Notes under the pieces: generated by a model
What the model was told of the DNA's origin: nothing
What the model saw: only the letters and a program-made list of their open reading frames with translations
The model's database searches: none
Translations under genes and position numbers: made by a program
Part shown: positions 43,051 to 46,212 of the stretch, piece by piece
Layout of the letters: each line of letters opens with the position of its first letter
Position numbering within the stretch: position 1 is the first letter of the stretch
From: Spirochaetia bacterium
Lineage (GTDB): Bacteria > Spirochaetota > UBA4802 > UBA5550
Assembly: GCA_009885955.1 (NCBI GenBank)
Contig: VFJS01000005.1
Span: 1 to 64,000 of the forward strand
Length of the DNA stretch: 64,000 nt
Reading direction: 5' to 3'

Positions 43051-43965
43051 TTATAAATCTATAATGAATCTGTAAAAATTATTAAGCCCCTCATCAATTT
43101 TTGATGAAACCAAATCAGGATTAATTTCAGGAAAAGAACAGGTTTGAAGGATGTTTTCAACTGAATTCAATACCCTCTCTTCATCAAAATCATCATACAG
43201 TCCAAGATTTGAAATATTCATGGTGTCAATTACCATTTCGGTCAGTTCAGAGTGGTACACTGTTGGATTTATTGCCATCGGCCGGCATCCGCAGATATAT
43301 GACTCATAAAGGGTTATTCCGAAATGAGTAATAACAATTTTGCCGGACAAAAGTAATTCTGCACTGGTTTTTTCAGAATAAAAATCCGGATATCTTCCTT
43401 TGATTGATGAATCCCTATTATCTGATAATATTAAAATTGAAATATTTTCAGGGAAAATTGATAATAATTTTTTTAAATATTCTTCATGAATTTTGAATCC
43501 GGGATATATTATTAAATCGATATTCTTTTTAATATTCATACCTGAAAAACTTTTCACCGCTTTGGAAAAATTATAACCGAATAAAAACATATCCTTAAAT
43601 GAATTTGTATTTTTTTGATAATGAACAAGATTGGGAAGGAGGTCAATGGTATAATCTGCCCTATATCTCCCTTCTCCCAAATCATCTATTACTAAAACTT
43701 TTCCGGTTCTTTTTAACTTGTCTATCTCATCTTGTTCTGAATCCCGCATATCCCTTATGATAAGGTCTGAATCAGGATGGATCTCAGGGATACTAAACCT
43801 CCTTAATTCTTCAGGGATATATTCGGTATCCCCCATTAATTTTAAAAAGGCATGAATATTACTATTTTCTTTGAGGTACCAAAGAAAATTGAGCATCCTC
43901 TGAAAGTGGCCGGCCCCGAGATTCGGACTTAAACCTGTTACTATAGTAATAGTCTTATTAGCCAT
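43051..43965 (-). CDS. PseG/SpsG-like nucleotide-sugar hydrolase or GT-B protein
   Basis: A 304-residue product with a GT-B-like fold. The N-terminus reads GLSPNLGAGHFQRMLNFLWY, equivalent to the GxGHxxR motif of PseG/SpsG UDP-sugar hydrolases and MurG-like enzymes; KVLVIDDLGEGRYRADYTID resembles the PseG segment after the inter-domain link. The C-terminal half (FGITLYESYICGCRPMAINP) aligns with the nucleotide-binding region of GT28. It overlaps the SpsF-like gene by eight bases and should act in the same pathway, likely nonulosonic-acid or related sugar activation. Confidence 0.75.
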   Translation of the reverse strand: MANKTITIVTGLSPNLGAGHFQRMLNFLWYLKENSNIHAFLKLMGDTEYIPEELRRFSIPEIHPDSDLIIRDMRDSEQDEIDKLKRTGKVLVIDDLGEGRYRADYTIDLLPNLVHYQKNTNSFKDMFLFGYNFSKAVKSFSGMNIKKNIDLIIYPGFKIHEEYLKKLLSIFPENISILILSDNRDSSIKGRYPDFYSEKTSAELLLSGKIVITHFGITLYESYICGCRPMAINPTVYHSELTEMVIDTMNISNLGLYDDFDEERVLNSVENILQTCSFPEINPDLVSSKIDEGLNNFYRFIIDL

Positions 43966-44716
43966 TACTCGAATGTGTCATTGGTCTCTGATGTACACCG
44001 CTGTTGATATCAGCAAGATGCGGATTTTCAATAAAAAAATCAATTATAGATTGGAGGGGGATTGGAAATCCCTTATACAGATCATCATAGATTATTTTTG
44101 CCAGGGTATAATCTTCCCCGGTATCAACGGTTAGCCTTAATGTTTCAAAGGGATTATTCAATGATACAGCATGCCTGACAATCTTAAACATATCAGGATT
44201 TTCTTTTATATATGGAGAAACATGCTCCAGCTGGTGCTGCATTCTGCTCATTGTATAAGCTTTTTCCAGAGCCTCTTTTTTTATAATTTCAACTGCAACT
44301 CCCAAAGGAAGATCCTTAATTGAGCAAAGATCGGCCTTTGTTTCCTCAGCAATTTTCGCAGCAACTGATGCATACACAGGATCGGTAAAGGGATTGTCAC
44401 CTGTTATCCTGATTATGTAATCCCCTCCGAATTTTTCTGCTGCCATATAATATCTCTCGAGAACATTTTCAGATGAACCGACAAACGTTCCGATTTTCAT
44501 TGAGTCAGCAAGTTCAATCATCGACGCATTTTCGTCACCAGGGCATGTAGCCAGAACAATTATTCCTGCTTCATGTATTGCCCTGGCCCTTTCAATTACA
44601 TGATATAGCATTGGCTTGCCTTTTAAAGGAAGCATTGCCTTCCCTGGCAGCCGCGAAGAATCCATTCTGGCCTGAATAATAGCAGTAAAGGTTGGCTTGT
44701 TTTTTTTAGCGCCCAT
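43958..44716 (-). CDS. SpsF-like cytidylyltransferase family protein
   Basis: A 252-residue nucleotidyltransferase. AIIQARMDSSRLPGKAMLPL (residues ~11-30) is the classical signature of SpsF and CMP-sugar synthetases and binds the nucleotide; RITGDNPFTDP (~100-110) supplies the metal-binding Asp, followed by LPLGVAVEIIKKEALEKA. SpsF-type enzymes activate sugars such as legionaminic or related acids with CTP in surface or spore coat polysaccharides. It overlaps the PseG-like gene (8 bases) and follows the radical SAM gene by 17 bases. Confidence 0.85.
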   Translation of the reverse strand: MGAKKNKPTFTAIIQARMDSSRLPGKAMLPLKGKPMLYHVIERARAIHEAGIIVLATCPGDENASMIELADSMKIGTFVGSSENVLERYYMAAEKFGGDYIIRITGDNPFTDPVYASVAAKIAEETKADLCSIKDLPLGVAVEIIKKEALEKAYTMSRMQHQLEHVSPYIKENPDMFKIVRHAVSLNNPFETLRLTVDTGEDYTLAKIIYDDLYKGFPIPLQSIIDFFIENPHLADINSGVHQRPMTHSSNG

Positions 44717-44733: not shown

Positions 44734-46212
44734 CTACAGGTTAAAGGTATACCACTCATCACATTCACCGCAATCCGGGGCATGTGCCAGATTGCCCTTG
44801 TAGTTATCGGCAAACATTTTTTTTCTCTTTTCCCATTGCAGTTTTATGGATTCCTCTTTGACATTTCCGGTTGAAAAAATCCCGTCAACATCTTCCCGGC
44901 AGTAAGTGATTGTCCCGTCAGATAGTATATACAGGTCTCTCTGAAGATGCCAGCATGGAATCCTTTCAATGGGTGACAGGTCAGAATATCTTCGATCTTC
45001 TATGCGTTTCAGGAACATATTCTGTTTTTGGAGAATGATGGTTACTTTATGCTGCTCCCAGATGTCATAATATTTATCGAGTAACGGCTCCGTTTCATTA
45101 ATTTTCATTATCTGAAGAAACAAATTATCTTTATCCTTCATTCCATCTTTCAGCATTTTGATATTTTCAAAAACCCTGCTGTACAAATCCTTGCCATGAA
45201 GGGCGGTGTACGATTCCGAATCAATTCCATTTACATTAATGATGACTTTAATCAGCGGATTCTTCATATCATTAATGAATGTAACAAAATTCATATCTGC
45301 ATAAAGACCATTGGTCTCTATCAGAACCTCTGATACAAGGGACTCCTTTGAGATTAATTCCATGAACAGATAAAAGTTCGAATGCAATAACGGCTCTCCT
45401 GATCCGCCCAGGCATATATTATAGGGAAGATTGAATTCTCTCATATCACTAAGAATTTTCCTGAAAACAGCCTCATCGATATCATCATGCTCCGTTTTGA
45501 ATGTATTTCTAAAACAGAAAATGCAGTCCAGATCGCACCTGCCTGTCAATTCTATTTCTATATATGACGGGCCGATATAAAGAATTTCGGGAGATGCATT
45601 AAAAATATCTTTCAGCTCACCATAATGAGGGACAGAACCTGAAAGATTGTATAACCTTTCCATTATCATTTTATCACGCCGATTCCCTGATCTGAAAGAT
45701 ATCCGCTTATCCCGTATATCGGGATCCTTGTAATAGAGTTCTATGTCAAACTGATTTATATTGTTCCGTATGACTTTGCTCAGCTGAAGTGTCTGCTTTT
45801 CCGGCTCGGGAATGGATTCAATGAGTTCCCTGGATATTATTTCGCATGATAAGCCGCTCGGGAGATTCTCTGAATAAGAAAATTCAGCGAGATATTCAAG
45901 ATGCTGCTCAAGCATTTCATTTATTATATCTGGATCAATAAATGGGGAATCTAAAAATATTTTGATGATGTTATCGGAACCGGTTTTTATAAAAATATCT
46001 TTCCAGAATATTATATCATCAATTCCGATTCTGATAAAAACCTGGCCCAGTTCCTTTACTCTCCCTGAATATGATTCAGGTATTGAATAATAAATATGTT
46101 CAAACCCGCTTTTAAGCTTAACATTTAAAAAATCAGGAATATAGAAATCAGGAAATGTCAGATCACTGTCAGAAATAGCAGTATCCAGAAACAGCAGTAT
46201 ATCATTTTTCAA
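44734..46212 (-). CDS. spiro-SPASM radical SAM protein
   Basis: The 492-residue product has an N-terminal region (~1-190), a radical SAM core (~210-400) with CDLDCIFC near 222 (the CxxxCxxC that binds the SAM [4Fe-4S] cluster), GGSGEPLLH, and a SPASM-type C-terminus with many Cys (PCWHLQRDL, TITYCRED, HAPDCGECDEW) for extra clusters. This order fits the spiro-SPASM family known from spirochaetes, whose substrate I do not know. The N-terminal region resembles the neighbouring SpsF-like protein (FLDSPFIDPD, LPSGLSCEIISRELIES). Its start overlaps the ppiC-type gene by four bases. Confidence 0.88.
   Translation of the reverse strand: MKNDILLFLDTAISDSDLTFPDFYIPDFLNVKLKSGFEHIYYSIPESYSGRVKELGQVFIRIGIDDIIFWKDIFIKTGSDNIIKIFLDSPFIDPDIINEMLEQHLEYLAEFSYSENLPSGLSCEIISRELIESIPEPEKQTLQLSKVIRNNINQFDIELYYKDPDIRDKRISFRSGNRRDKMIMERLYNLSGSVPHYGELKDIFNASPEILYIGPSYIEIELTGRCDLDCIFCFRNTFKTEHDDIDEAVFRKILSDMREFNLPYNICLGGSGEPLLHSNFYLFMELISKESLVSEVLIETNGLYADMNFVTFINDMKNPLIKVIINVNGIDSESYTALHGKDLYSRVFENIKMLKDGMKDKDNLFLQIMKINETEPLLDKYYDIWEQHKVTIILQKQNMFLKRIEDRRYSDLSPIERIPCWHLQRDLYILSDGTITYCREDVDGIFSTGNVKEESIKLQWEKRKKMFADNYKGNLAHAPDCGECDEWYTFNL

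Follow-up and report, generated by a model that had tools for sequence, protein, structure and literature searches.

The N-terminal domain of spiro-SPASM (TIGR04321), a radical-SAM/SPASM protein of spirochaetes, belongs to the CMP-sugar synthetase family, specifically to its SpsF branch, but has lost catalysis; in many spirochaetes the radical-SAM half, judged by its missing cluster motif, is without its catalytic centre too, while the protein is otherwise strictly kept. The best overall explanation, in our view an evenly balanced one, is that the non-catalytic SpsF-type domain binds a sugar or SpsF in the synthesis of the flagellin glycan, with the radical step being optional. What was assumed to be a radical enzyme would thereby become a protein whose role in flagellar glycan synthesis, as binder or scaffold, can be tested. 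In the literature searched, no mention of spiro-SPASM, TIGR04321 or a pseudo-radical-SAM protein of this kind was found; neither a role for the family, as had been said in the preliminary description of this DNA, nor the identity of its N-terminal domain or the recurrent motif loss was found described there.

The window, that is, the whole stretch of 64,000 nucleotides of contig VFJS01000005.1 that was analyzed, encodes spiro-SPASM at 44734..46212 on the reverse strand, on which all features of the window named below are located. The protein has 492 aa, starts with a TTG codon overlapping the end of an upstream ppiC-like gene and scores 378.6 bits against TIGR04321 (curated cut-off 250). The pseudo-cytidylyltransferase (SpsF-type) domain (residues 1-204, 45601..46212) is followed by a radical SAM domain (PF04055, residues 220-360, 45133..45555; 56.1 bits vs. 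29.5), in which the cluster motif C226-DLD-C230-IF-C233 is present (45514..45537), and by a SPASM region (residues 420-484, 44761..44955; PF13186, 28.0 bits vs. 21.5) with the near-invariant cysteines C420, C438, C481, and C484. The gene of an SpsF-like cytidylyltransferase with intact catalytic residues (43958..44716, 252 aa; PF02348, E 4e-28) starts 17 bp downstream, and a gene for an SpsG/PseG-like protein (43051..43965) is the third of a conserved trio.

Homology, fold and origin of the N-terminal domain

The relationship between the N-terminal domain and the adjacent SpsF-like protein had initially been proposed from short motifs shared by the two proteins. Both reading frames and these motifs were recovered at the coordinates given here and in matching order: D88-SPFIDP and L117-PSGLSCEII in spiro-SPASM, G106-DNPFTDP and L136-PLGVAVEII in the SpsF-like protein. 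Thus, D88-S-P-F-I-D93 (45934..45951) corresponds to D-N-P-F-T-D, the metal/acceptor motif in SpsF, and L117-P-S-G-L-S-C-E-I125 (45838..45864) to LPLGVAVEI. The proposed relationship is borne out by BLASTP, profile-profile comparison and fold alike. A single BLASTP comparison of residues 1-204 with the neighboring SpsF gave 32% identity over 85 aa (E 6e-9). Profiles of the domain and of SpsF, built from up to ~60 spirochaete homologs, matched each other over ~200 columns with a probability of 98-99% (E 9e-15 to 5e-18); the controls rSAM, SpsG, PpiC, MurI, CimA, and rhomboid all stayed below 2%. When an SpsF profile was run over the whole genome, the pseudo-domain came up unprompted as the third match (C53:45646-45987, E 8e-10). 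The Pfam family CTP_transf_3 reaches the domain only below its cut-off (E 0.025-0.05), which is why the domain carries no such Pfam annotation.

Searches of the PDB with the profiles of the domain and of SpsF yielded the same top match, 6oew, a cytidylyltransferase from Leptospira borgpetersenii (E 1.6e-6 and E 1.3e-51, respectively). AlphaFold2 predicted the full-length protein with a pLDDT of 93.9 and a pTM of 0.90, and residues 1-204 alone with a pLDDT of 95.4 and a pTM of 0.91. In a Foldseek search with the domain model, 6oew ranked first (TM 0.79 on the query, E 3e-9), and the next matches, GlmU, IspD, MobA, TarI, and KdsB, were all nucleotidyltransferases; the full model matched 6oew via its N-terminus and BtrN, SuiB, SkfB, DesII, and anSME via its barrel. 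Matches of the domain in a viral structure library were generic nucleotidyltransferases and glycosyltransferases only. The GT-A-like nucleotidyltransferase fold anticipated for the N-terminus is therefore the one predicted for it, and no competing confident fold was found. That the similarity reflects convergence or a generic Rossmann-like resemblance is extremely improbable and was rejected: distant members do show low sequence identity, but the single-pair BLASTP is already significant, the profile match spans the full length with nil controls, an SpsF-type enzyme is the best PDB match by sequence as well as by fold, and on the tree the domain falls on the SpsF side, away from KdsB and NeuA.

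All pseudo-domains form one clade (support 100/100) with a long stem, and SpsF and the domain together are split from KdsB and NeuA with 100/99 support. In line with this, the domain reaches profile scores of 100-120 with SpsF, compared to 47 with KdsB and 40 with NeuA, and both of the latter are disfavored as parent by scores and tree. AU tests of SpsF-family parent placements gave p-values of 0.25-0.27, rejecting neither the domain as sister of all SpsF (p 0.27) nor its grouping with spirochaete SpsF alone (p 0.26), and the domain matches SpsF of other phyla as well as it matches the SpsF of its own operon. The domain thus goes back to a single ancient event inside the SpsF family, and it was fused to a radical-SAM/SPASM protein a single time, no later than in the common ancestor of those spirochaetes that carry the protein. 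Of the duplication and fusion suggested earlier, the fusion stands, whereas a recent duplication of the neighboring gene in this genome is rejected by the single clade and its long stem; a copy of the adjacent SpsF gene as the ancient source is possible but unproven.

Twelve residues are invariant in 37 spirochaete SpsF proteins (alignment A2), namely Q15, R17, S20, R22, K26, G80, R88, R103, E164, H165, D198, and D202, and the same twelve are found in 34-38 of the 38 sequences of a wider SpsF sample. None of them is conserved among the 24 pseudo-domains compared. In these 24 domains the nucleotide-binding loop QARxxSxRLPGK is unconserved, with its RLPGK part deleted or replaced; in the window, the loop R17-MDSSRLPGK26 of SpsF (44639..44668) has no counterpart in the pseudo-domain, in agreement with the early remark that the N-terminus of the radical SAM protein is missing this motif. 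Counterparts of the metal-binding aspartate pair, D107 and D198, are kept in 19 and 7 of the 24 domains, respectively; that of D202 is kept in 3, and E164 and H165 are lost. With the nucleotide-handling residues of SpsF unconserved, the loss of catalysis suggested initially is upheld.

Other positions are well preserved. P109, P137, G139, and R194 of SpsF are kept in 23-24 of the 24 pseudo-domains; P90 is kept in most spiro-SPASM members and D88 in about three quarters. G120, D165, and R170 are invariant in all 122 proteins (D165..R170, 45703..45720), with R170 aligning with the conserved R194 of SpsF. Moreover, H104, N153, E158, D165, and R167 are near-invariant and specific to the domain, having no fixed counterpart in SpsF, which indicates a site that was remodeled rather than merely eroded. 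Part of the pocket is retained in the dead domain; the kept residues could serve folding only, and it is plausible that the dead fold still binds a sugar or a partner, as had been proposed. Fold, full-length homology and the DxPFxD, PxG, and R motifs are thus common to the pseudo-domain and SpsF/COG1861-type enzymes (PF02348; PDB 6oew; B. subtilis SpsF), from which it differs by the missing nucleotide-loop residues and second metal aspartate and by its fusion to a radical SAM/SPASM protein. With KdsB and the CMP-sugar synthetases NeuA/PseF it shares the superfamily fold, but here the profile match is much weaker and the position on the tree separate.

Repeated loss of the radical-SAM motif

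The motif CxxxCxxC is present in 84 and absent in 38 of 122 dereplicated spiro-SPASM proteins, and all three of its cysteines are gone in 33 of the 38 cluster-less members. On a tree built with the motif columns left out, its state changed at least 15 times (~33 for shuffled labels), or 18 losses are counted if regain is excluded. The losses include Turneriella and Brevinema MAGs (L148, L137), the family f15 (L058-L060), L068, and L006, and divergent members below the TIGR04321 cut-off (f32, f37) are likewise without the radical motif. Owing to this repeated loss, many members have a pseudoenzyme in their second half too, a feature that had been missed in the preliminary description.

Apart from the three cysteines, the columns conserved in the intact set are largely conserved in the cluster-less set too, pN/pS is below 0.5 in all three domains for cluster-less pairs, and 121 of the 122 proteins have all four SPASM cysteines. 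A search of the cluster-less members for a replacement Fe-S motif or substitute cysteine pattern found none. Most of them still have GEP, the motif of the SAM site, so SAM or another ligand could still be used.

Barrel, CxxxCxxC motif (84 of 122) and a four-cysteine auxiliary site are shared with radical SAM/SPASM or Twitch enzymes such as BtrN, DesII, and anSME, from which spiro-SPASM differs by losing the cluster motif many times and by adding an N-terminal pseudo-cytidylyltransferase. Its one four-cysteine site is fewer than in two-cluster SPASM proteins. The NCBIfam "Pseudo-rSAM/SPASM" families comprise SPASM proteins without radical-SAM cysteines, in which the motif is generally absent family-wide, whereas in spiro-SPASM it disappeared repeatedly among the orthologs of a single family. 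The family therefore offers a natural series for how radical-SAM proteins outlive their chemistry.

Two unusual forms of the protein were seen. L209 and L210 (f32), below the NCBIfam cut-off and without radical-SAM cysteines, have an altered C-terminal motif, CKDCxIWDQ. L205 (G005:C27) is a spiro-SPASM of 621 aa with an insert of ~130 residues between N-terminal domain and barrel, about 40 of which align with the SPASM section of the profile.

Operon context and distribution

Across 61 loci, the gene order spiro-SPASM, SpsF, SpsG/PseG-like is conserved. The gene following spiro-SPASM starts within ~100 bp or overlaps it in most loci, and in the majority of loci SpsF is found no farther than ~1.1 kb downstream, frequently with overlap. 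Three families (f15, f44, f53) have an SpsF that is unlinked, and the radical motif is gone from two of these, a sample too small to tie cluster loss to loss of SpsF linkage. No fusion of spiro-SPASM with SpsF was found among the 61 loci. SpsF relatives of other phyla adjoin pseG or pseI.

Treponema-type loci additionally contain methyltransferase, GT2-like, ATP-grasp ligase and amidase genes, with the GT2-like gene positioned between spiro-SPASM and SpsF in 23 of them. In these 23 loci, L089:7505-8464 among them, the gene and the end of spiro-SPASM overlap. Its only Pfam match is weak (E 0.03); a relationship of its product to the pseudo-domain was rejected (probability below 2%). SpsF, SpsG/PseG-like protein and SAM-methyltransferase are fused into one protein of ~850 aa in L067 (8554-11085), L066, L068, L086, L087, L089, and L090, all from Treponema-type genomes, and a fusion of SpsG and methyltransferase (~590 aa) occurs in others; in many spirochaetes other than that of the window, SpsG is joined to a methyltransferase. 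Two SpsF profile matches contain in-frame stops, G009:C1:124475-125152 (one TAA) and G143:C28:10436-11137 (one TGA, two TAA), possibly due to the profile running beyond the gene's own stop.

TIGR04321 is above cut-off in 227 of 296 spirochaete genomes and flagellin is present in 281. All 15 flagellin-less genomes (f45, f49) are without a spiro-SPASM above cut-off. Borreliaceae (f39, an assignment confirmed for two members by plasmid matches) have flagellin and are without spiro-SPASM; in the five tested, NeuB and SpsF were not found either. A strong NeuB match accompanies spiro-SPASM in all tested genomes except three fragmented ones. Spiro-SPASM hence tracks flagellin and nonulosonic acid synthesis, a pattern based on a small number of independent losses (Borreliaceae and one or two clades without flagellin); it is nearly universal in flagellated spirochaetes except Borreliaceae and is kept even in a genome of 1.14 Mb. 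Two flagellin-less genomes of f49, G226 and G249, have kept a strong NeuB and are without spiro-SPASM and the SpsF ortholog, suggesting that their NeuB serves another glycan.

Possible roles of spiro-SPASM

In T. denticola, flagellins are decorated with a pseudaminic acid that bears a methoxy-trihydroxyhexanoyl group at N7, and the methyltransferase and ATP-grasp ligase would suit such an N7-modified pseudaminic acid. The flagellins of this species need the PseI protein TDE0960 (PMC9862357), and SpsG and SpsF of B. subtilis act in the synthesis and use of CMP-legionaminic acid (PMC7439481). We propose that spiro-SPASM belongs to a pathway in which a nonulosonic acid of the pseudaminic or legionaminic type is activated with CMP and used to glycosylate flagellin. 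In this pathway, the dead domain would bind the nonulosonic acid or the CMP-sugar handled by SpsF or, alternatively, pair with SpsF by replacing an SpsF subunit, and the bound sugar or SpsF would be kept in place for the barrel and the SPASM site with its four cysteines, the core common to all members. In lineages bearing the radical-SAM motif, including that of the window, a radical step may tailor the sugar. Since losses of the motif are numerous and the remainder of the protein is under purifying selection, this step appears to be dispensable, and binding or docking, not radical chemistry, would consequently be what all members have in common. A more far-reaching form of this proposal is a doubly non-catalytic scaffold, ancestral to spirochaetes, that binds a nonulosonic-acid sugar or docks SpsF and whose ancestral or accessory radical chemistry was discarded at least 15 times; in our estimation it falls a little short of an even chance.

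It is rather unlikely that spiro-SPASM is an ordinary radical-SAM sugar-tailoring enzyme. In that case the dead domain would only recognize the substrate (CMP-sugar or sugar), the barrel would catalyze a radical reaction like BtrN or DesII, and the members without a cluster would be relaxed leftovers. The window protein does retain CxxxCxxC, and two of the proteins matched by the barrel (BtrN, SuiB, SkfB, DesII, anSME) act on sugars or cyclitols, a likeness to BtrN and DesII that is generic for the superfamily and carries no weight on the substrate. A leftover would decay, but at least 15 motif losses occurred without loss of the gene, and the other conserved residues and purifying selection were retained, which counts against the relaxed-leftover view.

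A regulatory partnership, in which the dead domain forms a heterodimer with SpsF, stabilizing or activating it, and the SPASM cluster senses iron or redox state, is likewise considered improbable. CMP-sugar synthetases are typically dimers, and the tight conserved linkage and frequent gene overlap with SpsF, the homologous fold and the invariant residues outside the lost nucleotide site are all consistent with such a pairing; the unlinked SpsF of three families and the missing SpsF fusions among 61 loci speak against it.

Finally, a peptide or metalloenzyme maturase that is merely encoded beside sugar genes, its N-terminal domain being recruited for peptide binding like RiPP recognition domains, is very unlikely: SPASM proteins often modify peptides and there are weak generic matches to maturase families, but the N-terminal fold is that of a cytidylyltransferase and not of a RiPP recognition element, the operon is of carbohydrate type, and the co-occurrence of spiro-SPASM follows NeuB and SpsF.
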